From IMG/VR virus record IMGVR_UViG_3300021482_000007, positions 1 to 23,608 of that record: a stretch of DNA of 23,608 nt. The stretch is one strand, 5' to 3'. Shown in pieces: positions 1-10,103 of the stretch. Source of the DNA: a virus. The notes beneath the pieces are model-generated. The model had not been told where the DNA came from. It worked only from the letters and a program-made list of their open reading frames with translations, and searched no databases. The translations under genes and the position numbers were made by a program. Each line of letters opens with the position of its first letter. Within the stretch, counting starts at the first letter, position 1.

Positions 1-719
1 TATTGTCCCATATCCAGCACGTAAAAATAGTCCTTGATTATGGCTGAATAGGACTTCTGGAAACTGAATGGATTAGGGATAATTGTTTGTGTGAATGTAT
101 CAATCAATGTGTTGTGGTCTGGTGTTCCTGTAAGTGTAAACCTAAGCTTGATTTTATTCTTTTTGATTAGCTTGACTGCGTTTTCAAACAACTGTGTTTT
201 TGGATTTTTAATTTTTTGGGATTCGTCAAAGACTACAATATCAATAGGTTTGGTCACTTTGTGTAAGCTTTCATAGGTAGTAAGTGTGATGTTTAGATTA
301 TGGCCTTTACTAGCAAAAAATCTTTTGTGCTCGTCTTCCCATTCTCTAAGGACGCTTTTAGGTGCGACTATTAATGGGTTTTTCCCTTTATTCTTTAGCT
401 TCTGGAGTAAAAAAATAATAGACAGGGCAATGACTGTTTTTCCCGCCCCCATAGTCAAATAAAATGCTCCTATCCCACATTTATAGCCTATAAATACTGG
501 TATTCTTTGGAACGGTTTGAGCTTCAATGGAAGTTTAGACAATACAATATCCATTTCCTCTTGATAAGCGTCCTCAAAATGTCCCTTTCCAGAGTTAGCT
601 TTAGCACACATAATTTGGTAGGCTAGAAATCTTTTTCTTTCCTTAACTTCCTCTGGAAGGATAAATGTCCCTTTCCCTTTATAATGTTTCCAGAGTTTTT
701 TCAGATTTTTGCTTGACAT
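1..719 (-). CDS. SF2/SNF2-like DNA helicase, N-terminal part (runs off the left edge)
   Basis: Reading leftward from an ATG at 719 gives an open frame to position 1, so the 3' part is outside the window. The protein has an LKPFQ Q-motif-like start of the helicase domain (about residue 67), Walker A GAGKT (91-95), motif Ia LIVAPKSVLREWEDE (from 116), a DESQ Walker B motif (about 165) followed by KIKNP, and motif III LTGTP (196-200). This order is that of SNF2-like superfamily 2 ATPases, which translocate on DNA and occur in phage replication and recombination blocks. The ribosome site AGGAGAGGAG precedes the ATG; this gene does not use the G-run site common in this block. A perfect 8-bp hairpin (752-770) separates it from the upstream gene. 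The helicase class is well supported; the exact cellular role is inferred. Confidence 0.85.
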   Translation of the reverse strand, partial: MSSKNLKKLWKHYKGKGTFILPEEVKERKRFLAYQIMCAKANSGKGHFEDAYQEEMDIVLSKLPLKLKPFQRIPVFIGYKCGIGAFYLTMGAGKTVIALSIIFLLQKLKNKGKNPLIVAPKSVLREWEDEHKRFFASKGHNLNITLTTYESLHKVTKPIDIVVFDESQKIKNPKTQLFENAVKLIKKNKIKLRFTLTGTPDHNTLIDTFTQTIIPNPFSFQKSYSAIIKDYFYVLDMGQ

Positions 720-751
720 ACATCTCCTCTCCTGTATGGGATTTTTTGGTA

Positions 752-770
752 AGGGCGCTATAAGCGCCCT
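752..770 (-). repeat. Intergenic hairpin AGGGCGCT/AGCGCCCT
   Basis: A perfect 8-bp stem with a 3-nt loop lies just after the stop of the 775-1128 gene. In the leftward transcript it is followed by UUACCAAAAAAU, not by a U tract. On the opposite strand it is followed by CTTTTT, so if it terminates transcription it would do so better for rightward RNA. Confidence 0.6.
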
Positions 771-774
771 CTTT

Positions 775-1128
775 TTAGAGTCCTTTGACTGCAATATAAG
801 GTTTTCTCTCTTTTCTTATCACTGCGTTTGAGCTAGCATACTTCTTATATCCAGTATTTCCAAGTGCCTTTTTTACGGTGTTAAGATTAACAATGATTTC
901 GTCTTTTATAGCTTCAGCGTCGTCTGGTTCCAGTGCTACGTATGGTATTTGCAGCGTGGGATTTGGAGTAACCTTTGTGATTTTTACTTTTCCAATTTCA
1001 GCCTTTTCAAATCCGTTATTTAGTAGCAGTTCTTTTAGTTTGTTAATTTTCCCTTCCAACTCCCTCTTCCTTTTTTCAAGCTCAATTAGTCCTTTTAAAG
1101 CAATTTCCATTTTTTCTTTGTTTAACAT
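775..1128 (-). CDS. Small coiled-coil phage protein, function unknown
   Basis: The 117-residue protein starts with a charged helix (about residues 3-40, rich in Lys, Glu and Leu) that looks like a coiled coil, followed by a mixed region with VALEPDDAEAIKDEI and a basic C-terminus. This layout, a helical hairpin followed by a small folded part, resembles Gp157-like and host-nuclease-inhibitor-like phage proteins, but I see no diagnostic motif and do not assign one. The ATG at 1128 follows AAGGGGGTAAAACC, the G-run ribosome site of this gene block. It lies 15 nt downstream of the previous gene's stop, so the two are probably co-transcribed. Confidence 0.6.
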   Translation of the reverse strand: MLNKEKMEIALKGLIELEKRKRELEGKINKLKELLLNNGFEKAEIGKVKITKVTPNPTLQIPYVALEPDDAEAIKDEIIVNLNTVKKALGNTGYKKYASSNAVIRKERKPYIAVKGL

Positions 1129-1143
1129 GGTTTTACCCCCTTT

Positions 1144-1416
1144 TTAGATTTTTAGGTTTAAAACTTTTTTAAAGCTTTTTTTAATTAAGAGACCCTCTGG
1201 AGTCTCTTTTACCCAGCGTTTTATGTACTTTTTAAAGGCTTCAAGGTCGAAGAATTTCAATAACAAAGCTTCATTTGTAACCTTTCTTTCCAACAATTCA
1301 ACAATAAAGTCGTCCAATGTCCATCCTTCTTTGTATATCCATTCATTTAGCTCCTCTTTACTAAGGTCTGTTTTGAATGGATATACGTGTTTCAATAAGA
1401 CTTCTTTTTTACTCAC
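1144..1416 (-). CDS. Small basic protein of unknown function
   Basis: About 90 residues, rich in Lys and Leu, with no recognised domain. The start is ambiguous. An ATG at 1422 sits directly against the ribosome site GGGGGG (1423-1428), which leaves no spacer, whereas a GTG at 1416 in the same frame has a 6-nt spacer and is preferred here. The ribosome site and start lie inside the last codons of the upstream gene (stop 1409-1411), so the two genes overlap and are probably translationally coupled. It contains the Leu-Glu-Ala encoded by the TTGAAGC word repeated through this block. Confidence 0.5.
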   Translation of the reverse strand: MSKKEVLLKHVYPFKTDLSKEELNEWIYKEGWTLDDFIVELLERKVTNEALLLKFFDLEAFKKYIKRWVKETPEGLLIKKSFKKVLNLKI

Positions 1417-1828
1417 ATACATCCCCCCTTTCTGATTTTAGGATTTCAATTACTTTGTTTATTAAATCCTCGCTTGTTTCTACGGATTTCCAGTCAATTT
1501 CGTCTAAAGGATTATTAAACCAGCTATCCAGATAGTTTATGTATGGTGAGAAATCGTCTTCCCATTCCTGGAGTTTGTTTAAAAGCTCTCTGTGCTCCTC
1601 GTCGTCCTCGTCTAATATGTTTCTTATAGTATTGACAATCTTGTAGAACATCAAAGACATTACTCCATGAAACCAGCTATTGATATCGGTCACGTTCATA
1701 TAGTTATTTTCAATATATTCTCTTATATCCTCTGGATATATCTCTAATAACTCAGCTTTTTCTATCAATTCATTTAATGCTTCTATGTCTAAACTCCCCC
1801 AGTTTAAGACATCTTTTAATTCTAACAT
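1409..1828 (-). CDS. Acidic helical protein of unknown function
   Basis: The 139-residue protein is strongly acidic and predicted helical, with many Trp and Tyr in the second half (EWEDDFSPYINYLDSWF). I recognise no family. The ATG at 1828 follows AAGGGGGTAAGCC. Upstream, between it and the 1910-2599 gene, lie a TGTCAA motif (leftward reading, 1858-1863) and a 12-bp hairpin (1872-1904), the arrangement that recurs at the head of transcription units in this block. Its 3' end overlaps the next gene. Small acidic phage proteins are often inhibitors of host enzymes or DNA mimics, but nothing here proves that. Confidence 0.55.
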   Translation of the reverse strand: MLELKDVLNWGSLDIEALNELIEKAELLEIYPEDIREYIENNYMNVTDINSWFHGVMSLMFYKIVNTIRNILDEDDEEHRELLNKLQEWEDDFSPYINYLDSWFNNPLDEIDWKSVETSEDLINKVIEILKSERGDVCE

Positions 1829-1871
1829 GGCTTACCCCCTTATTTTGTTTTTTATTGTTGACAATTTTCAC

Positions 1872-1904
1872 TAGAAAGAGGGATATAGAGTTTCCCTCTT
1901 TCTA
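1872..1904 (-). repeat. Intergenic hairpin TAGAAAGAGGGA/TCCCTCTTTCTA
   Basis: A perfect 12-bp stem with a 9-nt loop lies right after the stop of the 1910-2599 gene in the leftward direction. No U tract follows in that direction; the sequence continues GUGAAAAUUGUCAAC, which contains the TGTCAA motif. It is better read as a 3'-end stabiliser, processing site or protein site than as an ordinary terminator. Confidence 0.6.
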
Positions 1905-1909
1905 ATGGT

Positions 1910-2599
1910 TTACTTATTTACACATTCAAGTTTAAGGTACTGTTCCTCTTCCAGGTGAAACATTTCACCTGTATGTTTATCAAAGACAAAGTTATTAGCT
2001 TCAAAGTATTCCTTTAAATATTCGTCTGATGTTTGGTATTCCAGCTCCTTGACCAATCTATCATACAATTCTTTTGATATATCCTTACAGAATTCGTCCC
2101 AGTCTTTTTTAAAGTTTTCAATGGCTTCCTCTATCTCTTCAATTGTGATGTCCTCGTATGTTTCTTTCAACTCTTTAATAATAGGTTCTAAGTCCTCGTC
2201 GTAATAATTTTCTATTTCAACGTTGCTGTCTTGGTAGAGATTTCGTCCTGGTTTAGCTTCAATAAAGTATATTATTCCATGTTCCACAAGTGCCTGGACT
2301 ATCCTACCAAATCTCTTATCCCCAAAGTCCTTAGTATATTTTTTGATATCCACTAGCTCACCGCCCCATGCAGCGCCGTCGCTTTGGCAGTATCCGATGG
2401 AAAACTGGATACTATCTTTATCCACTTCAACACCATATTTTTCTTTCATGTCTTCCATAAATCCTTCTATAACTGGATAGTACCAATCAAAGTAGTCTAA
2501 ATTTTCATAATGATTATTTCTTACTTTCTCTTTTATTTCTTCTGGTAGGTCTTGATATTTTACGCATTCGTGTTGTTTTACAATTATGTATTTTTCCAT
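1910..2599 (-). CDS. Conserved phage protein of the 'YCQ.DGA' type
   Basis: The 229-residue acidic protein has a start pattern LPEEIKEKVRNNHYE, then DWYYPVIEGFMEDMKEKYGVEVD and the sequence FSIGYCQSDGAAWGGE (about residues 66-82). A segment of the form 'LSEEAK.KA' followed by 'LSYCQGDGA.F' marks a family of phage proteins that is sometimes annotated, without good evidence, as an antitoxin of a stability system. The C-terminal half is helical and highly charged, ending EYFEANNFVFDKHTGEMFHLEEEQ. The ATG at 2599 follows AAGGGGGTAAAGCT and lies 4 nt beyond the upstream gene's stop, so the two are coupled. Family recognition is fair; its function is unknown. Confidence 0.65.
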   Translation of the reverse strand: MEKYIIVKQHECVKYQDLPEEIKEKVRNNHYENLDYFDWYYPVIEGFMEDMKEKYGVEVDKDSIQFSIGYCQSDGAAWGGELVDIKKYTKDFGDKRFGRIVQALVEHGIIYFIEAKPGRNLYQDSNVEIENYYDEDLEPIIKELKETYEDITIEEIEEAIENFKKDWDEFCKDISKELYDRLVKELEYQTSDEYLKEYFEANNFVFDKHTGEMFHLEEEQYLKLECVNK

Positions 2600-2603
2600 A
2601 GCT

Positions 2604-2831
2604 TTACCCCCTTATTGGTTTAATTTCATATATGGCCTTTTTTGTCCCTTCTGGAGTTTCAATGTAACATAGTACTGCACCGTGCCTTTGGAATATTGCA
2701 GGCTTCCCTTTTTTCTTTTTGGATTCCAGGACAGTCCCTCTATATTTCCTTTTACCACTAACACCTTCAATCAATTCCCCTGGTCTTGGATACCAGTTTT
2801 TTGGTGCTTCAACGGATATAAATTTTGCCAT
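2604..2831 (-). CDS. Small basic protein, possibly a beta-barrel
   Basis: The 75-residue protein is rich in Lys, Gly and Pro and has alternating hydrophobic and charged stretches (GVSGKRKYRGTVLESKKKKG, then AVLCYIETPEGTKKAIYEIKPI). This suggests a small SH3- or OB-like barrel, possibly binding nucleic acid; that is inference from composition only. The ATG at 2831 follows AAGGGGGTGATAGT. It sits 13 nt beyond the end of the upstream gene and 4 nt before the next, in a tight run of genes that includes 1910-2599 and 2845-3249. Confidence 0.55.
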   Translation of the reverse strand: MAKFISVEAPKNWYPRPGELIEGVSGKRKYRGTVLESKKKKGKPAIFQRHGAVLCYIETPEGTKKAIYEIKPIRG

Positions 2832-2844
2832 ACTATCACCCCCT

Positions 2845-3249
2845 TTATATTGTTTTAAAGGCCTTAGTGCCTATGATTTGCCCTCTATCGTTTCTTACAA
2901 CGTATTTCTCTCCAGTATGAGGACTGACAAACATAATTGGCTTCAGTCCCCTATGCATTAGAAGTTTTTTTGCTTTTTCTATAAGGCTTCTATTGCGCTT
3001 GAATTCTAATAGTACTGGTAAAGAAACAATTACAATTGTCTCTTTACCTTCCAGAATTTTTGGTAGTTTTTCTATTATTATCCCTACGTCTTTAAAGTCC
3101 CCCTGGATAAGAGGGATATTTTTGAAACTACCTTTTATGTCCTCGGATTCTATGAGTCTTAAGCTTCCGTGTGATTCAATTGTTAAGATTTTTTTGTTTT
3201 CCTTATACACATTAACGACATGAGGAGTTAGGTTTAATAGTATTTTCAT
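2845..3249 (-). CDS. Conserved phage protein with N-terminal LTPH motif
   Basis: The 134-residue protein begins ILLNLTPHVVNVY. It continues with a SHGSLRL segment, a central VSLPVLLEF strand, and ends with VRNDRGQIIGTKAF. These blocks match a widespread small phage protein that starts 'NLTPH.(L/V)N', has a central 'YIVS.LVA.A' strand and ends with 'VRD..GRIIGC.A(F/L)'. The function of that family is not known to me. Here the central strand-to-C-terminus segment is longer than usual and basic (KRNRSLIEKAKKLLMHRG). The ATG at 3249 follows AAAGGGGGTAAGACA, and the upstream gene ends 4 nt earlier. Confidence 0.7.
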   Translation of the reverse strand: MKILLNLTPHVVNVYKENKKILTIESHGSLRLIESEDIKGSFKNIPLIQGDFKDVGIIIEKLPKILEGKETIVIVSLPVLLEFKRNRSLIEKAKKLLMHRGLKPIMFVSPHTGEKYVVRNDRGQIIGTKAFKTI

Positions 3250-3253
3250 TGTC

Positions 3254-3940
3254 TTACCCCCTTTTTGCTATTTCGTTTAAAAAGAGTTGCCTTAAAAAGT
3301 TTTTAACGTATTTTCTTAAGTTTTTTCTAAACCTTACTCTAACCTTTCGCTTATCTCCTTTGAAGGTTCTTAATATGAGATAGTCGGTTTTATATATTGT
3401 CCCGTCATGAAGGAAATTTGTTTTAATCAAGTTTTCAGATATGTCCTTGCGCCTATCCATGAGCAATCCAAATAAGTCATAACTCCGTACTAGGTTTTTG
3501 ATTTTTTCGTTAAGGCTTCCGTGTACATCTCTACCATCTATTATATTTAATCCTCTTTCTGAGTATGTTACGTCAAAAAATTCTTTCCAAATTCTTTCTA
3601 TATTTAGGTTTTCAAATTGCTTCAATGTCTCTTCGTTAATATCCCGTTGCTTTTGTTTATAAAATCGTTTCAAATATTCGTAGTATGTGAATGGGATTTT
3701 TAAGTATGCATAGTTTTTAAGTATTTTATTCCAAAAACTTATTTTAATTCTTTTTATTAGCTTTGTTTTATAGGCTTCAAATACTTCTGGAGACACAATA
3801 CTTAATTCTAAATTTATGTTTTTAAATTCTTTCTCCAGTAAACTTATATCTTTTTTTATGTCTTTTGCCTTTTTAACCGACTTGTTGTACGCTTTAATCA
3901 GTTTTGTTTTTTCTCTTTCTGGGATTATAATTTTCTCCAT
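3254..3940 (-). CDS. DUF4942-like protein, first of two paralogues
   Basis: The 228-residue protein has an N-terminal helix (MEKIIIPEREKTKLIKAYN), a middle ISFWNKILKN segment, an IWKEFFDV segment, RSYDLFGLLMD, and a C-terminal TDYLILRTFKGDKRKVRVRF strand pair followed by KNLRKYVKNF. The order of helix-rich middle and a final 'YF..R.FKNGN.H..F.R.DLV..LN'-type strand pair resembles DUF4942, a domain found in phages and beside DNA methyltransferases. The match is by eye and tentative. The gene at 4012-4704 is a clear paralogue with the same blocks in the same order. The ATG at 3940 follows AAAGGGGTAAACT; a TGTCGA motif and a 14-bp hairpin lie upstream. Confidence 0.6.
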   Translation of the reverse strand: MEKIIIPEREKTKLIKAYNKSVKKAKDIKKDISLLEKEFKNINLELSIVSPEVFEAYKTKLIKRIKISFWNKILKNYAYLKIPFTYYEYLKRFYKQKQRDINEETLKQFENLNIERIWKEFFDVTYSERGLNIIDGRDVHGSLNEKIKNLVRSYDLFGLLMDRRKDISENLIKTNFLHDGTIYKTDYLILRTFKGDKRKVRVRFRKNLRKYVKNFLRQLFLNEIAKRG

Positions 3941-3973
3941 AGTTTACCCCTTTTTTTCTTTTATTATCGACAT

Positions 3974-4005
3974 ACTGGGATAAGGGATAGCTCCCTTATC
4001 CCAGT
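3974..4005 (-). repeat. Intergenic hairpin, perfect 14-bp stem
   Basis: ACTGGGATAAGGGA pairs perfectly with TCCCTTATCCCAGT across a 4-nt loop, right after the stop of the 4012-4704 gene. The leftward transcript continues AUGUCGAUAAUAAAAG, again the TGTCAA-like motif and an A-rich stretch instead of a U tract. Confidence 0.65.
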
Positions 4006-4011
4006 TATTAC

Positions 4012-4704
4012 TTATTGCTTGCCATATCTTTTGATAAAGTTATTGACATATCTTTGTAATTTTTTCTTAAAGGTTAGTCTTATTTTGTATCTATCCCCCT
4101 TAAATGTTCTCATTTTTAAATAGTCGGTTTCATAAGTGACCCCACTGATTATAAAATTTGCGCTAATAAACTTATTATAGATTTCTCCACTGTTTTTATA
4201 GCCGTCCATTAGCAATCCAAACAGGTCAAAGCTCCATACAACGTCTTTGACCTGTTCGGTCAAGCTTCCATATTCATTGCGAGCGCCTTCAATTTCAATT
4301 GTACGTCCGCCGTGAAAATTCCAGTCAAAGAATTTTACCCATATTTTATGGATACTTGCACAAAATTCTTTCTCAAATTTGTTAAGATTCTCCATGTTAA
4401 TTGGGTATTCTTTCCTTTGGTATATCGCCAAGTTAGCTTTATAAACATTGAATGGGATTCTAAGGTGTAAATATCTATGAAATATCTCGTCCCAGAACGC
4501 CCTTGTGATTTCGCCTTCAATGTCTGTTTGCATAGTTTCAAATAACGCTTGAGATACTGCGTCCATAGACATTTTGATTTTATTTATTATTAGCTCGTTC
4601 AAGTCCCACACGTCTTTTTTAAGGCCTTTTGCTCTTGCAATTGCTTCGTTATAAGCTTCAACCAATTCTTTTTTCTCTTTTTGCTCAATTATAATTTTCT
4701 CCAT
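4012..4704 (-). CDS. DUF4942-like protein, second paralogue
   Basis: The 230-residue protein shares with the 3254-3940 product the start MEKIII, a FWDEIFHRYLHLRIPF segment, IWVKFFDW, SFDLFGLLMDG and the final TDYLKMRTFKGDRYKIRLTF. It is therefore a tandem duplicate that has diverged widely, mostly in the first 60 residues and in the loop after LLMD. DUF4942 is a tentative family assignment. The coding sequence itself contains a perfect 12-bp inverted repeat (4220-4256). The ATG at 4704 follows AAAGGGGGTAAGTC, and upstream is a perfect 14-bp palindromic hairpin carrying the GGTCAA form of the unit-head motif. Confidence 0.6.
   Translation of the reverse strand: MEKIIIEQKEKKELVEAYNEAIARAKGLKKDVWDLNELIINKIKMSMDAVSQALFETMQTDIEGEITRAFWDEIFHRYLHLRIPFNVYKANLAIYQRKEYPINMENLNKFEKEFCASIHKIWVKFFDWNFHGGRTIEIEGARNEYGSLTEQVKDVVWSFDLFGLLMDGYKNSGEIYNKFISANFIISGVTYETDYLKMRTFKGDRYKIRLTFKKKLQRYVNNFIKRYGKQ
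4220..4256 (-). repeat. Hairpin inside a coding region, 12-bp stem
   Basis: AACAGGTCAAAG (4220-4231) and CTTTGACCTGTT (4245-4256) are perfect inverted copies with a 13-nt loop, inside the second DUF4942-like gene. It shows that coding hairpins of this block are not limited to the dense cluster at 7776-9034. Confidence 0.6.
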
Positions 4705-4733
4705 GACTTACCCCCTTTTTGTTTTTTTGTTAT

Positions 4734-4764
4734 TGACCTATGCATATACTATATGCATAGGTCA
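4734..4764 (-). repeat. Intergenic hairpin, perfect 14-bp stem with 3-nt loop
   Basis: TGACCTATGCATAT and ATATGCATAGGTCA flank a 3-nt loop, just after the stop of the 4773-5300 gene. The last bases of the stem in the leftward RNA form GGUCAAUAAC, so the conserved TGTCAATA-type motif overlaps the stem here. Confidence 0.65.
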
Positions 4765-4772
4765 TACATTTG

Positions 4773-5300
4773 TCAAATATTATTTTTCACTTCATTTAAT
4801 ATTTTTTGGAATTTCTCTTTTAACCTTGACATAATTTTTCTAGTTGCTTCAATTTCCTGTTCCAGCGCTTCAATATTTGGGATTATATTGTTTTCAGTTA
4901 TCAAAAGGTCAATTTGGCCTTTTTTTGTGGCTTCAATTTTCCAATCATTGTCTATTGTTATATTTATCCCGCTAATTTTTATTAGTGCGAGATAGTGGAT
5001 TCCAAAGAATAGTCTTAGTTTTTCTGGTAGGATAGGTTTAACGTCACTGACCAATCTTTGATAAGCTTCAATTATACAATCAAAGTCTTTGATATACAGG
5101 TTTGCCTTGTCTAAAATATTTCTCATATCCTCTGGAGTAACTGAATAGAGAGGCTGGTCAAAGACAGTATATCCCTTGTATTTTATTATTAGCTTGTTGT
5201 CCTCACTAAGGGCTTCAAAATTGCCCTTGCAAGCGTAAAAGGGATAATCTGCATAAACTTTATAACGTGCTTCAATGAAAATCTCTTTAATTTTTTCCAT
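4773..5300 (-). CDS. Helical protein of unknown function
   Basis: The 175-residue protein has an alpha/beta-looking first half (KVYADYPFYACKGNFEAL, then a strand-rich YKGYTVFDQPLYSV) and a C-terminal amphipathic helix from about residue 140 (IEALEQEIEATRKIMSRLKEKFQ) that is probably a coiled coil. I recognise no family. More than half of its alanines follow a glutamate, and six of these Glu-Ala pairs are written with the TTGAAGC word. The ATG at 5300 follows AAAGGGGGCAAACT and lies 17 nt beyond the upstream gene's stop. Confidence 0.55.
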   Translation of the reverse strand: MEKIKEIFIEARYKVYADYPFYACKGNFEALSEDNKLIIKYKGYTVFDQPLYSVTPEDMRNILDKANLYIKDFDCIIEAYQRLVSDVKPILPEKLRLFFGIHYLALIKISGINITIDNDWKIEATKKGQIDLLITENNIIPNIEALEQEIEATRKIMSRLKEKFQKILNEVKNNI

Positions 5301-5317
5301 AGTTTGCCCCCTTTATT

Positions 5318-5530
5318 TTAGTCTTTTGTTTCGGTTGGTATTATTGAATACCAGTTACCTTTTTTGTCCTCTTTTGTCTCTAAACTTCCAGAGTCCCAGC
5401 CGTTGAAGTCTTTTTGCTTTTCAATAAATTTTTTTGCTCCTTCTAACTGTCTGAACACTGCAAGCGTTATAGTTTCAATACAGTCATTAAAGTTTTCAGT
5501 GATTTTTTTCTGGACGATATAGATTTTCAT
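5318..5530 (-). CDS. Small phage protein of unknown function
   Basis: The 70-residue protein reads MKIYIVQKK, then ETITLAVFRQLEGAKKFIEKQKD and a C-terminal WYSIIPTE strand. This beta-alpha-beta outline with an '..A.(K/E).(F/Y)I' helix is common in small phage proteins that report a strand-helix-strand fold; no function follows. The ATG at 5530 follows AAAAGGGGTTAAGAT. Upstream lie the TGTCAATATAAA motif and a 15-bp hairpin that form one copy of the long repeat flanking ardA. Confidence 0.5.
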   Translation of the reverse strand: MKIYIVQKKITENFNDCIETITLAVFRQLEGAKKFIEKQKDFNGWDSGSLETKEDKKGNWYSIIPTETKD

Positions 5531-5542
5531 ATCTTAACCCCT

Positions 5543-5620
5543 TTTTTTTCTCTTTTATATTGACATTAAAGCTTAAATTTTTTTATCTGGAATAAGAGAG
5601 AACATCTCTCTTATTCCAGT
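5543..5620 (-). repeat. Long direct repeat copy 1, downstream of ardA
   Basis: About 78 bp here is nearly identical to 6147-6226. In the leftward direction each copy comprises a hairpin with 15-bp arms (5587-5601 and 5605-5619), an A-rich spacer, a TGTCAATATAAAAGAG motif and the beginning of the ribosome-site leader. The copies flank ardA on both sides. A diverged third copy lies at about 6857-6929. Confidence 0.75.
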
Positions 5621-5642
5621 CCTTCACTTATTCCAGATAAAA
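5581..5642 (-). other. Mutually exclusive stems at the ardA stop codon
   Basis: In the leftward RNA, segment 1 (5642-5627, spanning the ardA stop), segment 2 (5619-5605) and segment 3 (5601-5581) share the word CTGGAATAAG or its complement. Segment 3 pairs perfectly with segment 2 (15 bp) or, alternatively, with segment 1 (16 bp, TTTTATCTGGAATAAG with CTTATTCCAGATAAAA). Both cannot form together. A ribosome at the ardA stop would mask segment 1 and favour the 2:3 hairpin. The base complementarity is seen directly; a switching role is inferred. Confidence 0.6.
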
Positions 5643-6131
5643 CACGCCTTTATCTGTTTCAATGTACCCGTCGTGCCTTAAATCATTGCCCAGTGCTTCA
5701 TAATTAATGTAGGGCAATATTTTTTCTGGAATTTCTCCAAGTAGTCCCTCGTCAACGAATTCTCTCGCCAAGTCCTCAAGTGAATAACCCTCATAGTAAG
5801 TAACATCGTCTATGTATTCCAGGGCTTCTGTAGGTTCATATCCCATATGCTCAATTAGAAATTCCAGCTTGTCCTTATCCTCTTGTGACATAGAGGATAA
5901 GGCCTCACCTAATTCTACCAAGTCGTCTATATCCTCATATTCGTCTATTTCCAGGTTTTGCAAGTCAGTTTCATAGTCTGTTATAAAAACTTCTTCTCCC
6001 CCGCCAGCTTCAATGATTTTATTGATTTCTCTTTCTATAGTTTCTTTGTCTAGTGCTTCAAAATCAAGCCATTTTCCTATCAATTTACCTTCATTGTATG
6101 CGTGTAAATTTGTTATAAATACTTTTAACAT
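5628..6131 (-). CDS. ardA: ArdA-type antirestriction protein
   Basis: The 167-residue acidic protein has the ArdA plan: an N-terminal FITNLHAYNEGKLIGKWLDF strand-loop-strand, EEVFITDYETDLQNLEIDEYEDIDDLVELGEAL, a helical middle (EDKDKLEFLIEHMG.EPTEALEYIDDV), then EGYSLEDLAREFVDEGLLGEIPE and a final YINYEALGNDLRHDGYI. ArdA proteins mimic bent DNA and block type I restriction enzymes; length and acidity fit. This suggests that the host carries type I restriction. The ATG at 6131 follows AAAGGGGGTAAAGCT. The gene lies between two near-identical 78-bp repeats and contains a 10-bp coding hairpin (5873-5902). Its last codons (CTG GAA TAA) recur in the hairpin that follows. Confidence 0.9.
   Translation of the reverse strand: MLKVFITNLHAYNEGKLIGKWLDFEALDKETIEREINKIIEAGGGEEVFITDYETDLQNLEIDEYEDIDDLVELGEALSSMSQEDKDKLEFLIEHMGYEPTEALEYIDDVTYYEGYSLEDLAREFVDEGLLGEIPEKILPYINYEALGNDLRHDGYIETDKGVFYLE
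5873..5902 (-). repeat. Hairpin inside ardA, 10-bp stem
   Basis: CCTTATCCTC (5873-5882) and GAGGATAAGG (5893-5902) form a perfect inverted repeat with a 10-nt loop inside the coding sequence. Confidence 0.5.
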
Positions 6132-6146
6132 AGCTTTACCCCCTTT

Positions 6147-6226
6147 ATTTTTTTCTCTTTTATATTGACATTAAATCTCAAAATTTTTTTATCTGGAATA
6201 AGAGAGAACATCTCTCTTATTCCAGT
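6147..6226 (-). repeat. Long direct repeat copy 2, upstream of ardA
   Basis: This is the second copy of the repeat at 5543-5620, with the same 15-bp hairpin (6193-6207 and 6211-6225, loop ACA) and the same TGTCAATATAAAAGAG motif. The two copies differ mainly in a few bases of the AT-rich spacer. Unlike copy 1, the preceding gene's stop region does not supply a competing arm. Confidence 0.75.
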
Positions 6227-6234
6227 TTCTTTTA

Positions 6235-6846
6235 TTAGTCCTCGTTGTCCCATTTTTCAAAAAAGCTTAACTTTGGGTAAGACATCATTAATAATGTCAC
6301 CTTATTGTCACTTGAAACTATGTCCTCAAATTCAAATATGAGGACAATATTTTTCCCTTTATCTGGTTTTTGTATTGACATTGACACCTTACCGCTTATC
6401 ACTATTTCAAGCAATGGTAGTAATATTTTTTGAATTCGTTCAATTGAAGGGATGTAATTGTATAGATGGAATATAAGAGAAGTAAGGTAGGATAGTTTCA
6501 AGTCTTTTGTGTCTAAATCATTAAAAATTGCCTTGTTAATCTCTGTTTCTCTTTCTTTATTTTCTAATATTTCTGAAAAGTCTATATCTCTATTTGAATT
6601 GGCTTCAATGTATATATTGAATTCTTTCATTAATGGTAAACTTTCGCTACAAATTTTCTCATTTCCTATATCCTCAATTGGTAAGTATAAGGCAATATAT
6701 TGGTTCCCTACCAACAATTTTTCTCCTTGTGCTTGAATGTAAAAACTATCCTCTTTTTTTCCTATCTTGTGCAAGTATTTAATAATCTTTTCAATATCTT
6801 TGTAGCCTTTCATTGAATACAGTTTCTTTAATGTTACTTCTTTCAT
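6235..6846 (-). CDS. Protein of unknown function
   Basis: A 203-residue protein with an alternating strand and helix outline: SFYIQAQGEKLLVGNQYIALYLPIED near residues 35-65, a helical middle, and a strand-rich end (KVSMSIQKPDKGKNIVLIFEFEDIV, then KVTLLMMSYPKLSF). I recognise no family. The frame is open upstream to 6879, but the ATG at 6846 is chosen because it follows AAAGGGGGATAAT, the G-run ribosome site of this block, while the upstream ATG has none. Upstream are a TGTCAATAAC motif (6873-6878) and a 12-bp hairpin with one bulge. A smaller coding hairpin of 8 bp (TGTCCTCA/TGAGGACA) lies near 6320. Confidence 0.55.
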   Translation of the reverse strand: MKEVTLKKLYSMKGYKDIEKIIKYLHKIGKKEDSFYIQAQGEKLLVGNQYIALYLPIEDIGNEKICSESLPLMKEFNIYIEANSNRDIDFSEILENKERETEINKAIFNDLDTKDLKLSYLTSLIFHLYNYIPSIERIQKILLPLLEIVISGKVSMSIQKPDKGKNIVLIFEFEDIVSSDNKVTLLMMSYPKLSFFEKWDNED

Positions 6847-6899
6847 ATTATCCCCCTTTTTTCTTTTTGTTATTGACATTAAACCTTAATTTTTTTTGT

Positions 6900-6950
6900 C
6901 TGGAATAGGGAATAAATCCCTTATTCCAGGCCTTCAATCTCCTATTCCAG
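6900..6950 (-). repeat. Hairpin with a competing arm at the end of the 6942-7130 gene
   Basis: CTGGAATAGGGA (6900-6911) pairs with TCCCTTATTCCAG (6917-6929), with one bulged base. The gene's own last codons (CTG GAA TAG) supply CCTATTCCAG (6941-6950), which could pair with the same arm for 10 bp. This repeats the three-segment layout seen after ardA. Confidence 0.5.
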
Positions 6951-7130
6951 GGCTTCACTAGCCATAACATATAGGCCAGGTTTTACCCTTTTAACATACC
7001 ATAAAGAATAGGCTTGTCTTAGGTACTCTTTGGCTTCCTTCAATGTTTTGAATTTAAGGTCGTACCCGTCGCTTGGGTGTATTTTCCAAGTATTCGTTTT
7101 GACCTTGTAAATCTCTCTTGTTACTAGCAT
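6942..7130 (-). CDS. Small protein of unknown function
   Basis: The 62-residue protein reads IYKVKTNTWKIHPSDGYDLKFKTLKEAKEYLRQ, then WYVKRVKPGLYVMASEALE. The short strand-turn-helix outline with '(F/L)KTLKEAKEYL' is common among small phage proteins, and no function can be assigned. The ATG at 7130 follows AAGGGGGATAAT. It lies 22 nt beyond the upstream gene's stop. Confidence 0.5.
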   Translation of the reverse strand: MLVTREIYKVKTNTWKIHPSDGYDLKFKTLKEAKEYLRQAYSLWYVKRVKPGLYVMASEALE

Positions 7131-7152
7131 ATTATCCCCCTTATCTTACTTT

Positions 7153-7593
7153 TTATTTTTCTAATAATTTCGCCAAGTTATCTAATTCTGGACTATCGGT
7201 TTCAAGCCATTTAATCCTTTGTTCTATTTCTTTTTCCAGTTTGGTAGTCATAATATCTAGGAACATTATTTTTTTATCCTCTTCTATACTTTCAAATGCT
7301 TCTATGTCACCAGTTGGTAAAAATGGCCAAACAATCACATAACCACTGGAGATATCGTACTCATGAATTTTTAAACCCTTTTCAAAATGATATTTAGCTT
7401 CAAATTTGATGTTAAAGCCAAGGTTTTTTAATCCTTCAAGTAAGGTCAGCATATCCCTTACTTGCCTTATTTTTTCTAAATCTTCTTTTAACGAAGATTT
7501 GTTGAATCTGTGTCTTTTGGCTTCAATCAAAACTACCAAATAATTTTCCTTAAAGTACTTTTGTAGTTTCTCAATAAATTTTTCTCTTTTCAT
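7153..7593 (-). CDS. Protein of unknown function with helical ends
   Basis: The 146-residue protein is charged, with an N-terminal helix (KREKFIEKLQKYFKENYLVVLIEAKRHRF), a central strand-rich HEYDISSGYVIVWPFLPTG, and a C-terminal helix (TKLEKEIEQRIKWLE). No family is recognised. The ribosome site GGGAG precedes the ATG by 8 nt (GGGAGAAAGAAAAATG), different from the G-run used by genes to its left and like that of the 8435-9034 gene. Its upstream region carries the GGTCAATAAA motif (7635-7640) and the 26-bp tandem repeats. Confidence 0.55.
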   Translation of the reverse strand: MKREKFIEKLQKYFKENYLVVLIEAKRHRFNKSSLKEDLEKIRQVRDMLTLLEGLKNLGFNIKFEAKYHFEKGLKIHEYDISSGYVIVWPFLPTGDIEAFESIEEDKKIMFLDIMTTKLEKEIEQRIKWLETDSPELDNLAKLLEK

Positions 7594-7650
7594 TTTTCTT
7601 TCTCCCTTTTAAGTTATTGGTTTTATTAACTTTATTGACCTAACCAATTA

Positions 7651-7748
7651 ACCTGGTAAGGTGAAGGGATAAACTGACCTGGTAAGGTGAAGGGATAAAC
7701 TGACCTGGTAAGGTGAAGGGATAAACTGACCTGGTAAGGTGAAGGGAT
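7651..7748 (-). repeat. 26-bp tandem repeat, about 3.8 copies
   Basis: A 26-bp unit beginning ACCTGGTAAGGTGAAGGGAT starts at 7651, 7677, 7703 and 7729, the last copy being cut after 20 bp. Copies are identical. The GGTGAAGGGAT part of each unit matches the arm of the hairpin that follows directly (7738-7768), so in the leftward RNA one hairpin arm has four possible partners. Confidence 0.9.
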
Positions 7749-7768
7749 TGTTAAACAATCCCTTCACC
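7738..7768 (-). repeat. Intergenic hairpin, 14- to 15-bp stem next to the tandem repeats
   Basis: GGTGAAGGGATTGT and ACAATCCCTTCACC form a perfect stem just after the stop of the 7776-8408 gene. On the rightward strand it is followed by AGTTTTTTT, which makes it terminator-like for rightward (antisense) RNA; in the leftward RNA no U tract follows. Confidence 0.7.
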
Positions 7769-7775
7769 AGTTTTT

Positions 7776-8408
7776 TTAGACGGTGATTGTTTTATTTTCT
7801 AGCAATGTTTTTTTGCCATGCCTTACGTAAGACATAGCAAACTTTTGGGAAAAAGGTAAAACTACAAAGATACCTTTTTCCCAATGAGTCCCACCATTGC
7901 TGGTGTTTTTCCAGCAATGGTGGAATATAGTATGGTCAAAACTGTCAACTGACAGTTTTGACCAGCTCCCTACCATTGTTTCTTTCTCTTTATATAATCC
8001 GATAAATACCTTTGCTTGTTTCTCCTCTTTTAATGGAATCCTTTGTTTTTCAATTACTATTTGATTGACACAGTCAATCAAATAGTAATCCCTAGACAAT
8101 ATTTTTGGTGGACGGACACACAAGCTGTTTTGGAAGGTTATAAGTAAGGGATAGTCTAAACTATCAAGGGATATATCCCTTGATAGTTTAATTTGCGGAT
8201 TGTTCTTGTGACTATAAGCACACTCCACGTCAAAATAAATCCAGTTATCCGTTTCCTTGAGTTTCCTTAAGGAAACGGATAACTTTAATTCAACAATGTT
8301 AAAAAATCTTTTCCTGTATCCCTTGAAACCAATAAGTTTTTTGGCTTCAAGAGGATGTTCTCTTAAAAATTTCCTTGCTTCACTGAAAGAATTAAATTTG
8401 TTTTGCAT
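7776..8408 (-). CDS. Protein of unknown function encoded by a hairpin-dense gene
   Basis: The 210-residue protein starts with a basic helix (SFSEARKFLREHPLEAKKLIGFKGYRKRFF), followed by a strand-rich part with YFDVECAYSHKNNP and YYLIDCVNQIVIE, and a C-terminal half with His and Trp (FDHTIFHHCWKNTSNGGTHWEKG). I recognise no family. Its main feature is at the nucleic-acid level: at least six long perfect inverted repeats (13 to 17 bp) lie wholly within the frame, so both arms of each stem encode protein. The ATG at 8408 follows AAGGGGGGTTTATT. The TGTCAATAAA motif (8438-8443) overlaps the stop of the gene upstream. Confidence 0.6.
   Translation of the reverse strand: MQNKFNSFSEARKFLREHPLEAKKLIGFKGYRKRFFNIVELKLSVSLRKLKETDNWIYFDVECAYSHKNNPQIKLSRDISLDSLDYPLLITFQNSLCVRPPKILSRDYYLIDCVNQIVIEKQRIPLKEEKQAKVFIGLYKEKETMVGSWSKLSVDSFDHTIFHHCWKNTSNGGTHWEKGIFVVLPFSQKFAMSYVRHGKKTLLENKTITV
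7813..7840 (-). repeat. Imperfect palindrome in coding sequence
   Basis: A 28-nt palindrome centred on ACGT, with 14-nt arms and two mismatches, near the 3' end of the 7776-8408 gene. It looks like a less perfect member of the hairpin series. Confidence 0.45.
7845..7884 (-). repeat. Coding hairpin, perfect 14-bp stem
   Basis: TTGGGAAAAAGGTA and TACCTTTTTCCCAA, loop 12 nt. The arms encode WEKGI and LPFSQ of the same protein. Confidence 0.8.
7891..7923 (-). repeat. Coding hairpin, perfect 13-bp stem
   Basis: CCACCATTGCTGG and CCAGCAATGGTGG, loop 7 nt, starting 6 nt from the previous hairpin. The arms encode HHCW and SNGG. Confidence 0.8.
7933..7964 (-). repeat. Coding hairpin, perfect 15-bp stem
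   Basis: TGGTCAAAACTGTCA and TGACAGTTTTGACCA are separated by only 2 nt. The arms encode WSKLS and DSFDH. Confidence 0.85.
8053..8089 (-). repeat. Coding hairpin, perfect 17-bp stem
   Basis: ATTACTATTTGATTGAC and GTCAATCAAATAGTAAT with a 3-nt loop. The arms encode YYLID and NQIVI. Confidence 0.85.
8157..8190 (-). repeat. Perfect 34-nt palindrome in coding sequence
   Basis: Two 17-nt arms, TAAACTATCAAGGGATA and its reverse complement, meet with no loop, encoding KLSRDISLDSLD. A gapless palindrome can extrude as a DNA cruciform as well as fold in RNA. Confidence 0.85.
8243..8284 (-). repeat. Coding hairpin, perfect 16-bp stem
   Basis: AGTTATCCGTTTCCTT and AAGGAAACGGATAACT with a 10-nt loop, encoding KLSVSLRKLKETDN. 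Confidence 0.85.
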
Positions 8409-8434
8409 AATAAACCCCCCTTAAGTTATTGATT

Positions 8435-9034
8435 TTATTGACAAATTTCCTTTTGTCCATACATTGTGTTATTGTCCAATGTATGGACAAATTTTATCTC
8501 ATACCTTTTCAAATAATCTTTAATTTTCCTTTTCAAGGATTTGTACAAGTAAGCGTCAGGGTACTCTATCCCGTCCAGGGATAGCGTATAAGCAAAATTC
8601 AAGAGATAATCTTTCAAATGTTCCCTTTCTATCCCGCTTAAGAGATAGGGAACATTTGAAATGATTTTATTTACATAACCATAAACCGATATGGGATTGT
8701 CCAAATAATCCCATATCGGTTTAAATTTTTTATTCTTTTTTGTCTTGACAGTTTCAGAGTAGTCTGGATTGTCCATGTACTTTTGGAACAGTCTATGTGC
8801 TGTTCCATGTGGACAATCCAATATTTCGCCTATCTGACGATAGGTGAAATTAAAGGATTTTCTCAAGACATATACATGCCTTGAGAAAATTCTTCTTTCG
8901 TCAAAATTCATTTCATAAATTTTAGTGATAGTCTTAATCCTTAGTTCGGGATTAAGACTATCACTAAAATTTTTCTCCAGGTTTTTTAACCTGGAGAAAA
9001 GATATTTTTTTGTATAGCAATTAAGATTTAACAT
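8435..9034 (-). CDS. HTH DNA-binding protein encoded by a hairpin-dense gene
   Basis: The 199-residue basic protein carries a helix-turn-helix at about residues 62-86 (FNFTYRQIGEILDCPHGTAHRLFQK), which matches the 'LS(Y/F)REIAEIL.CP.GTVKSRL' pattern of sigma-70 region 4 and similar domains. The rest is helical with no other clear domain; a sigma core (region 2) is not visible. It is the first full-size gene of the leftward early block, so a regulator of transcription or replication is plausible. Its coding sequence contains at least eight inverted repeats, up to a perfect 24-bp stem. The ATG at 9034 follows TTGGAGAAAGAAAG. Its 3' end includes a 15-bp hairpin and overlaps the next unit's TGTCAA motif. 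Confidence 0.65.
   Translation of the reverse strand: MLNLNCYTKKYLFSRLKNLEKNFSDSLNPELRIKTITKIYEMNFDERRIFSRHVYVLRKSFNFTYRQIGEILDCPHGTAHRLFQKYMDNPDYSETVKTKKNKKFKPIWDYLDNPISVYGYVNKIISNVPYLLSGIEREHLKDYLLNFAYTLSLDGIEYPDAYLYKSLKRKIKDYLKRYEIKFVHTLDNNTMYGQKEICQ
8452..8491 (-). repeat. Coding hairpin, perfect 15-bp stem
   Basis: TTTGTCCATACATTG and CAATGTATGGACAAA with a 10-nt loop, at the 3' end of the HTH gene, encoding part of FVHTLDNNTMYGQK. Confidence 0.8.
8562..8588 (-). repeat. Coding hairpin, 7-bp stem extended by 3 bp
   Basis: CTATCCC and GGGATAG surround a 5-nt loop; after one mismatch, TAC and GTA extend the stem. A weaker member of the series. Confidence 0.5.
8612..8661 (-). repeat. Coding hairpin, perfect 15-bp stem
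   Basis: TTTCAAATGTTCCCT and AGGGAACATTTGAAA with a 20-nt loop. Confidence 0.8.
8682..8723 (-). repeat. Coding hairpin, perfect 17-bp stem
   Basis: TAAACCGATATGGGATT and AATCCCATATCGGTTTA with an 8-nt loop, encoding KPIWDYLDNPISVYG. Confidence 0.85.
8765..8820 (-). repeat. Two-tier coding hairpin (11 bp plus 8 bp)
   Basis: The outer arms TGGATTGTCCA and TGGACAATCCA and the inner arms TGGAACAG and CTGTTCCA are perfect, separated by an asymmetric internal loop of 8 and 2 nt. It covers the end of the HTH coding region. Confidence 0.75.
8823..8850 (-). repeat. Coding hairpin, 12-bp stem with one G.T pair
   Basis: ATTTCGCCTATC and GATAGGTGAAAT with a 4-nt loop, inside the HTH-coding sequence. 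The single mispair is a wobble, which keeps an RNA or DNA stem intact. Confidence 0.7.
8853..8894 (-). repeat. Coding hairpin, 15-bp stem with one G.T pair
   Basis: The arms read AAGGATTTTCTCAAG and CTTGAGAAAATTCTT; after one mismatch, an inner CAT/ATG extends the stem. It lies 3 nt from the previous hairpin. Confidence 0.75.
8917..8972 (-). repeat. Longest coding hairpin, perfect 24-bp stem
   Basis: The arms at 8917-8940 and 8949-8972 are exact reverse complements over 24 bp with an 8-nt loop. They encode NFSDSLNP and RIKTITKIY. It is the longest stem I found in the window and abuts the next hairpin. Confidence 0.9.
8971..9000 (-). repeat. Coding hairpin, perfect 13-bp stem
   Basis: TTTTCTCCAGGTT and AACCTGGAGAAAA with a TTTT loop; it overlaps the 24-bp hairpin by 2 nt and encodes LFSRLKNLEKN. 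Confidence 0.85.
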
Positions 9035-9066
9035 CTTTCTTTCTCCAAATTTTTAAAGGTTAAACG

Positions 9067-9114
9067 AAAAAAAAAGGCAATACAATTTTAAGATAAACTT
9101 AAAATTGTATTGCC
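9067..9114 (-). terminator. Intrinsic terminator or attenuator before the early block
   Basis: In the leftward RNA a perfect 17-bp stem (9114-9098 with 9092-9076, 5-nt loop) is followed directly by nine U residues (9075-9067). This is the only hairpin of the early block with a good U tract in the reading direction. It sits between the control region and the HTH gene, so it would stop early transcription unless overridden. Its first arm is also the last codons of the small ORF at 9099-9194. Confidence 0.8.
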
Positions 9115-9194
9115 CACAGATAACCAACATAGCAACTAGCGATTATACTAGTTGCTACAAATACAAAATTTTTAACATAGTTTAAAATTTTCAT
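9099..9194 (-). CDS. Putative 31-residue leader peptide, hydrophobic
   Basis: An ATG at 9194, 8 nt after AGAGG, opens a 31-codon frame reading MKILNYVKNFVFVATSII then ASCYVGYLWAIQF, with the stop at 9099-9101. The peptide looks like one transmembrane segment. Its stop and last five codons lie inside the first arm of the intrinsic terminator, and codons in its middle form a separate 10-bp hairpin. A translating ribosome reaching the stop would cover the terminator arm, which is the layout of a translation-controlled attenuator. An ATG at 9201 lacks ribosome-site spacing and gives only nine codons. It could instead be a small membrane protein. Coding is inferred from the start site and position, as the frame is too short for codon statistics. 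Confidence 0.5.
   Translation of the reverse strand: MKILNYVKNFVFVATSIIASCYVGYLWAIQF
9130..9157 (-). repeat. Hairpin inside the leader peptide frame, 10-bp stem
   Basis: TAGCAACTAG and CTAGTTGCTA with an 8-nt loop, 15 nt before the terminator stem. It could act as a pause or anti-pause stem. Confidence 0.65.
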
Positions 9195-9249
9195 TTTCCA
9201 TACCTCTTTTTTTTCTTTTTTCCTTGACATTACCAACAATCACTTATCT

Positions 9250-9268
9250 ATATGCTATACCCATGCCA
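9250..9268 (-). promoter_or_regulatory. Sigma-54-like -24/-12 element, proximal and degenerate
   Basis: Leftward it reads TTGGCATGGGTATAGCATAT. The invariant GG and GC dinucleotides are 10 nt apart, as in RpoN promoters, although the -12 part is TAGCAT instead of TTGCAT. A start about 12 nt downstream would fall near 9242, roughly 50 nt before the leader peptide ATG. Confidence 0.45.
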
Positions 9269-9269
9269 A

Positions 9270-9545
9270 ATGTATGATATACACATAATTTATATAAAAT
9301 TTTTATAAATATGTGGAATCACTGGAAAAAATTTAAAATTGTCAAAATATAGACACCAATTTTTTTGATTTTACATTGACATTTATTTTTATATTGACAA
9401 AATTTGAAATAGCGATTTTACAAAATTTCATAAATGTATAAATTTTTTGAAAAATATTGTTGACAAAAATTGTCAAAAAATTACAAAAATTGTCAGCGTA
9501 ATTACAAAAAAATTGTCAATATAAAATAGTCAAAAAAGCGACATT
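9270..9545. other. AT-rich non-coding region with TTGACA/TGTCAA cluster
   Basis: This stretch has no plausible gene. TTGACA or its complement occurs at 9340-9345, 9376-9381, 9394-9399, 9460-9465, 9471-9476 and 9514-9519, two of them as an inverted pair with 5 nt between. The word ATTACAAAAATTGTCA is repeated, with small changes, around 9458-9520. Such an AT-rich stretch with repeated sites could be a replication origin with iterons, or an operator cluster; the sequence does not decide. Confidence 0.5.
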
Positions 9546-9645
9546 ATATTCAAAAACCATGCCAAAATTATATATGCAATGTGTGTGCCATGTGTATGAT
9601 ATATGCAAGAGATGTGCCAATGGTGCATATGCAAGGGGTGTGCCA
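9546..9645 (-). promoter_or_regulatory. Array of four tandem sigma-54-like -24/-12 elements
   Basis: Four 19-bp direct repeats start at 9546, 9572, 9601 and 9627 (spacings 26, 29 and 26). In the leftward direction the last three read TGGCAC-N5-TTGCATAT, a full match to the RpoN consensus TGGCAC-N5-TTGC with GG and GC 10 nt apart; the one at 9546 has TTGAAT in the -12 place. All point toward the early block. Matching iterons for a replication initiator would look similar, so the sites could have either role. Confidence 0.6.
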
Positions 9646-9672
9646 AGACGGGGGCGGGTGGCGCACTAGGCC

Positions 9673-9785
9673 TCTCTCACATATATAGTAAAATTTTACT
9701 ATAAAGATTCTTATTAAATTTTTACCGTAAGAGTTTTTATAAGAGTTTTAGTAAGAATCCTTCTCTCACATATATAGTAAAATTT
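9673..9785. promoter_or_regulatory. Repeats upstream of the sigma-54-like array
   Basis: A 24-bp block beginning TCTCTCACATATATAG occurs at 9673-9696 and again, identically, at 9762-9785. The first copy runs into a perfect 20-nt palindrome (9684-9703), and between the copies GATTCTTA and TAAGAATC form an inverted repeat (about 9706-9758). They lie some 30 to 140 bp upstream of the sigma-54-like sites, the distance at which enhancer-binding activators bind. The repeats are seen directly; an activator role is inferred. Confidence 0.5.
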
Positions 9786-10070
9786 CATAATGGAAGCTTT
9801 GTAGAGACCCACTTCTATACGCATTAAGTCCGATGGAGCATTCTCCCCTCCAGATGTATGAGGAGTGTGTTAGAATAATTCCGTGTAATCCTGTGTAATC
9901 CTGAATTTTCGGGAATTTTGTATTTTAAATGATTTCAGTGGGTTAAATGGTAGAATGGGTGTTCTTACAGCGAGGATATGGAGTGAAGTTGGTGTTGTAA
10001 TGTGTTGAAATTATTGTTTAAAAAATGAAATTTTGAGGAATTTGAAGGAATATTGAGATTTGTGGAGATT
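9786..10070. other. Non-coding stretch with little structure
   Basis: I see no gene here. A 10-bp tandem repeat GTGTAATCCT occupies 9883-9902. The rightward strand is G- and T-rich. No promoter or tRNA could be supported. Confidence 0.4.
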
Positions 10071-10092
10071 GAGGGAGGATTGTTCCTCCCTC
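10071..10092 (-). terminator. Hairpin after the leftward lysis genes
   Basis: GAGGGAGGA and TCCTCCCTC form a 9-bp stem with a 4-nt loop, 12 nt beyond the stop of the nuclease gene. No U tract follows (CAAUCUCC), so it is only a candidate end for the leftward late transcript. Confidence 0.45.
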
Positions 10093-10103
10093 CAGAGGTT
10101 GGT

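Follow-up and report, generated by a model that had tools for sequence, protein, structure and literature searches.

How did an anti-restriction gene of this uncultivated phage come to lie between two near-identical repeats, and does the arrangement make the gene an exchangeable cassette? The window, meaning the whole stretch of DNA that was analyzed, is a 23,608-bp virus record (IMGVR_UViG_3300021482_000007), and ardA occupies 5628-6131 on its minus strand and encodes 167 amino acids. The product matches Pfam PF07275 (E = 3.4e-30; 106 bits against a cutoff of 27; profile positions 1-154 of 155) and PHROG 2059 (E = 2.8e-28), and with the curated profile matched across the whole domain, it is a member of the ArdA anti-restriction proteins. 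The original prediction placed ardA between two near-identical repeats carrying a hairpin and a motif, with a diverged third copy nearby, and each of these claims holds. The repeats lie at 5543-5620 and 6149-6226, with two substitutions and a single 1-nt indel between them (the second copy beginning at 6148 or 6149), while the hairpin and A-tract are identical at 46 of 46 positions (5575-5620 and 6181-6226). Both repeats contain TGTCAATA and a 15-bp perfect stem with a 3-nt loop. BLAST within the record using 5531-5630 recovered the second copy at E = 7e-33 and a copy at 6845-6936 (80%; E = 2e-19), the latter being the third copy predicted at 6857-6929, and the similarity of the copies is far above chance. 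A fourth, more diverged copy at approximately 3941-4006 had been missed.

What the repeats do is best seen from their place in the operon. Genes in this region run leftward, and each repeat is thus the 5' leader of the gene on its left. Leader L1 (6149-6226; minus strand) precedes ardA and consists of a hairpin at 6193-6225, an A-tract, and TGTCAATA at 6163-6170. The near-identical leader L2 (5543-5620; minus strand) precedes a 70-aa gene downstream of ardA (5318-5530; minus strand), with its hairpin at 5587-5619 and TGTCAATA at 5558-5565. Leader L3 (6857-6929; minus strand), about 80% similar, precedes the gene upstream of ardA (6235-6846; minus strand) and has a bulged stem and TGTCAATA at 6871-6878. 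The fourth copy (3941-4006; minus strand) leads gene 3254-3940 and contains a hairpin at 3974-4005 (a CTGGGATAAGGGA stem), a TGTCGATA box, and a Shine-Dalgarno sequence. The same architecture, with unrelated hairpin sequences, recurs on the minus strand in the leaders of gene 4012-4704 (4705-4772; hairpin 4734-4764 with a 15-bp stem; GGTCAATAAC box), gene 1409-1828 (1829-1909; hairpin 1872-1904; TGTCAACAATAAAA box), and gene 7153-7593 (7594-7775; hairpin 7738-7768; GGTCAATAAA box). The last of these also holds 26-bp tandem repeats at approximately 7646-7748, each unit of which repeats the 3' arm of the 7738-7768 hairpin, so that several alternative hairpins are possible. Finally, an eighth leader copy, before gene 7776-8408, is embedded in the 3' end of the upstream ORF 8435-9034 (8409-8491; minus strand; hairpin 8452-8491; TGTCAATA at 8436-8443).

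Read on the coding (minus) strand from one stop codon to the next start, the order is hairpin, A-tract, TTTAATGTCAATA, purine-rich stretch, GGGG(G), and start codon, with the hairpin directly after the stop codon of the preceding gene and a G-rich Shine-Dalgarno sequence before the start. The TGTCAATA-like box is present in each of the operon's seven long spacers (68-182 nt; gene 1409 to gene 7153), six of which also contain a perfect stem of 12-15 bp, longer than in any of 200 shuffles. Stable hairpins were predicted in every leader (RNA folding z-scores of -3.6 to -7.2). Spacers lacking the module measure at most 22 nt, in keeping with coupled genes; the exception is a 64-nt spacer ahead of 8435, the first large gene, where an intrinsic terminator stands instead. 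Moreover, the box lies 31-46 nt from the start codon (31-38 nt in six of seven leaders) even as its distance from the hairpin varies, and thus the box is tied to the gene start. Because all long leaders in the operon are alike in architecture, having repeats on either side is no special feature of ardA. The operon units are gene 7776; genes 7153 and 6942; gene 6235; ardA; genes 5318 and 4773; gene 4012; genes 3254, 2845, 2604, and 1910; and genes 1409, 1144, and 775; ardA, a unit of one gene, is thus one of eight. Our favored explanation, held with moderate confidence, is that a standard leader partitions the leftward operon into small expression units and that the repeats are two of its copies. 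The operon is probably early, a timing suggested by position only.

We note that the last codons and stop codon of ardA (TTTTATCTGGAATAAG) could base-pair over 16 bp with the leader hairpin's 3' arm (5581-5642), which would exclude the 15-bp inner hairpin. A similar overlap occurs at approximately 6904-6960. We considered, as conjecture, that the alternative hairpins at the end of ardA might form a switch linked to translation.

How the leaders might separate units can be approached through their two conserved parts. For the hairpin, the transcribed strand shows no T run after the stem and continues instead as ATAAAAAAATTT, and a terminator scan placed the T-rich side of several leader hairpins on the opposite strand only. 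Classical intrinsic termination was therefore rejected for the sense strand, and without a sense-strand T run, message separation or end protection is likelier than simple intrinsic termination. Most likely, the hairpin would separate neighboring messages by marking or protecting mRNA ends. For the box, the window contains 13 occurrences of TGTCAATA where 1.3 are expected, and the composite box TGTCAATAWNAAAA matches 9 times against 0.5 expected, six of the nine in leaders at similar spacing. TTGACA/TGTCAA boxes also cluster in a control region at 9200-10100 (7 against 0.8 expected). The enrichment of the box and the clustering of its TGTCAA core suggest a transcription signal or regulator binding site, and the box would most likely control transcription, acting as a promoter-like element or as a binding site for a phage regulator. 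No conserved sigma-70 promoter was found beside the box, as promoter-like sites occurred at shuffle frequency; the sole strong sigma-70-like site is a near-consensus TTGACA-17-TATAGT at 4776-4748 on the minus strand, at the leader of gene 4012-4704, with its -10 element inside a leader hairpin.

The box has the same orientation relative to transcription in all leaders, and this, together with the clustering of the same hexamer in the control region, raises another explanation in which a phage repressor bound at intergenic TGTCAA boxes stops elongation and the hairpins only help. Such boxes would resemble L5 stoperators in being oriented with transcription (PMC6550527), and the adjoining gene 8435-9034 looks, by eye, like a helix-turn-helix protein. 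The L5 consensus was not matched, however, neither an integrase nor a repressor was identified, and the helix-turn-helix reading received no support from Pfam, PHROGs, or a fold model. We consider repression of this kind rather unlikely.

Upstream of the leftward operon, a noncoding stretch at 9340-9540 carries six TTGACA/TGTCAA boxes in both orientations and is possibly an operator or origin. Repeats of the TATATGCAA...GTGCCA type lie nearby at approximately 9567-9645. A strong intrinsic terminator at 9075-9115 (minus strand; 18-bp stem; T9) lies upstream of gene 8435, pointing to antitermination or attenuation where the operon begins. Two adjacent leftward ORFs of this operon, 7776-8408 and 8435-9034, contain 12 palindromes at 7845-8972 with perfect arms of 11-24 nt and differing sequences, spaced approximately 40-210 nt apart, compared with 0-2 in shuffles of the whole window. 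The same palindrome sequences occur in contig G002, the arms show no clear codon-phase preference, and the palindrome stretch folds as RNA at -350 kcal/mol per kb versus -180 to -236 elsewhere. These palindromes are odder than the ardA repeats themselves. Perhaps the leaders and the palindromes are one phenomenon, in which hairpins are continually created and retained for a phage function and the ardA repeats are one product, an idea that we regard as highly doubtful. Template switching near an origin, for instance, might then generate the hairpins, and early messages bearing them, or cruciform DNA, might serve functions such as message processing or evasion of a host nuclease. If so, the ardA repeats would be one visible product of a hairpin-driven route to early operons.

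Why two standard leaders should be nearly identical calls for a separate answer. Other leaders in the operon differ in hairpin sequence, and the identity of L1 and L2 thus most likely reflects recent copying rather than constraint. The copying would have been by duplication, insertion of ardA with a leader, or gene conversion, and few sites separate the three. In the same operon, the tandem paralogues 3254-3940 and 4012-4704 (42% identity) each have their own leader, and the pair with its leaders shows that the operon grows by duplication of units. One alternative is that both ardA leaders are of long standing and that gene conversion or local duplication homogenized them, with no accompanying acquisition of ardA. 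Leader L2 is indeed a mosaic that equals L1 in hairpin and box but L3 in the upstream flank and part of the linker, and the 26-bp tandem repeats show local copying elsewhere in the operon. The mosaic amounts to a handful of sites, however, and duplication with gene insertion followed by a few later substitutions gives the same picture. We consider old leaders unlikely, and the mosaic pattern fits conversion and insertion equally.

Whether ardA moves is a question on which geometry and comparison give different answers. Recombination between the repeats had been proposed to remove, add, or swap the gene, and the geometry supports the proposal, since the repeats are direct, complete leaders around one gene; actual exchange found no support. 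With full leaders on both sides and only ardA between them, crossing over would cleanly delete or add ardA and exactly one leader, leaving every neighbor with a leader of its own. From its position, ardA could be exchangeable as a cassette between leaders. The strict form of the idea, modeled on the promoter early stem-loop (PeSL) elements, is that homologous recombination between leaders brought in ardA together with its own leader and that related phages carry other genes, or none, at the site. Direct, near-identical, complete leaders around one gene argue for such an entry, and the phage encodes a UvsX-like recombinase and a RuvC-like resolvase. Moreover, the upstream flank of L2 (TGAAGG-CTGG) is like that of L3 and unlike that of L1, as expected if the downstream junction of ardA came from another unit. 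The flank resemblance spans few bases only, however, no relative, read, or second contig showed a different gene or an unoccupied site, and the composition of ardA is not foreign. Codon usage and GC content of ardA are the same as those of its operon neighbors, and the gene thus bears no sign of very recent arrival. We hold the strict form as a tentative possibility that falls short of even odds.

A search of related phages for other genes between the same repeats had been suggested as a check. It was carried out, and neither IMG/VR nor GTDB genomes nor GenBank phages yielded a relative with the ardA repeat region. Relatives were sought in IMG/VR with ardA, gene 6235, gene 8435, and the paralogue pair 3254/4012 and in GTDB genomes with gene 6235 and the capsid. 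In IMG/VR, ardA was found at 45% in an unrelated contig (L007) that has no such repeats or hairpins, and the other matches were to contigs of this phage itself; the paralogue pair had no relatives there, and gene 6235-6846 had none in IMG/VR or GTDB genomes. GenBank phages contained distant ardA genes only (33-35% identity), no relative of gene 8435-9034, and no DNA match to window positions 4000-9300. Hairpin and leader patterns matched in IMG/VR in unrelated contexts only, and an Rfam search gave no match. Record IMGVR_UViG_3300021490_000002 (81,254 bp) overlaps the window from position 7822 at 99.9% identity and adds 65 kb, and two further contigs are the same phage, which encodes a DNA polymerase, primase-helicase, ribonucleotide reductase, UvsX/RecA-like recombinase, and RuvC-like resolvase. 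These three contigs begin at window positions 7822, 10273, and 10080, without the ardA repeat region, and positions 1-7821 are known in one copy only because they are absent from all other contigs of the phage.

The original prediction also cast the region as an anti-defense array, and that description was not borne out, as no neighbor of ardA was identifiable as anti-defense by Pfam or PHROGs. Among the early-region genes tested, none but ardA scored above the Pfam cutoff, and PHROGs returned only families of unknown function for genes other than ardA. The 70-aa gene downstream of ardA has a weak likeness to DUF7336, below the Pfam cutoff. Fold models of gene 6235-6846 (single-sequence; pLDDT 47) and gene 8435-9034 were too low in confidence for use.

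Among known phage elements, the nearest parallels are the PeSL elements (T4-type phages) and the ESAS/SAS leaders (cluster K mycobacteriophages). The PeSL elements were reportedly described by Arbiol in 2010 and Comeau in 2014. They are repeated intergenic stem-loops with a candidate start signal between small accessory genes, for which shuffling by recombination is proposed, and in these respects the present leaders are like them. In T4-type phages, PeSL elements are described as mediating gene shuffling (PMC4503421). Several intergenic stem-loop copies are likewise present in this phage, whereas the terminator stem-loop with a sense-strand T run is absent from its leaders. Of an early promoter by the stem-loop, there is the one sigma-70-like site (4776-4748), promoter-like sites overall being at shuffle level, and the TGTCAATA box is conserved. 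Unlike in the PeSL case, an early promoter and shuffling would here be putative, and the phage has no detectable T4 relatives in this region.

In cluster K mycobacteriophages, ESAS/SAS leaders combine inverted repeats with start-associated sequences (PMC3203893). The likeness is that an inverted repeat directly precedes a short conserved element found close to many gene starts and almost always oriented the same way; an inverted repeat upstream of a start-associated element is present here. The 13-bp SAS GGGATAGGAGCCC is absent from gene starts, however, with one 2-mismatch match at chance level, hairpin sequences here vary by site, and the box lies upstream of, not within, the Shine-Dalgarno sequence. 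L5 stoperators have the 13-bp consensus GGTGGMTGTCAAG. The window contains one 2-mismatch match to it, at chance level, and the TGTCAA core alone is common to both. In cluster A mycobacteriophages, L5-type stoperators point along the direction of transcription and for the most part lie away from promoters (PMC6550527). The boxes described here are likewise short, asymmetric TGTCAA boxes in a single orientation relative to transcription and also cluster at the main control region, but their flanking consensus differs, they are coupled to hairpins, and no repressor was identified.

Phage morons are extra genes with their own promoter and terminator, and ardA is moron-like in being one accessory gene that carries signals of its own between phage genes. 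Nearly all units of the operon bear the same signals, however, and ardA thus does not stand out. With neither the SAS sequence nor the PeSL sense-strand terminator, the leader may act like both elements without belonging to either. A cassette mechanism, should it operate here, is by analogy already known in kind from PeSL and ESAS/SAS. If relatives carry other genes between the same leaders, the locus would generalize how phages collect counterdefense genes; as things stand, it mainly adds an architecture to seek in uncultivated phages. Ultimately, it offers a concrete case outside the T4-type and mycobacterial phages in which accessory genes like ardA are packed into an operon as units, each behind a leader of hairpin, box, and ribosome site.
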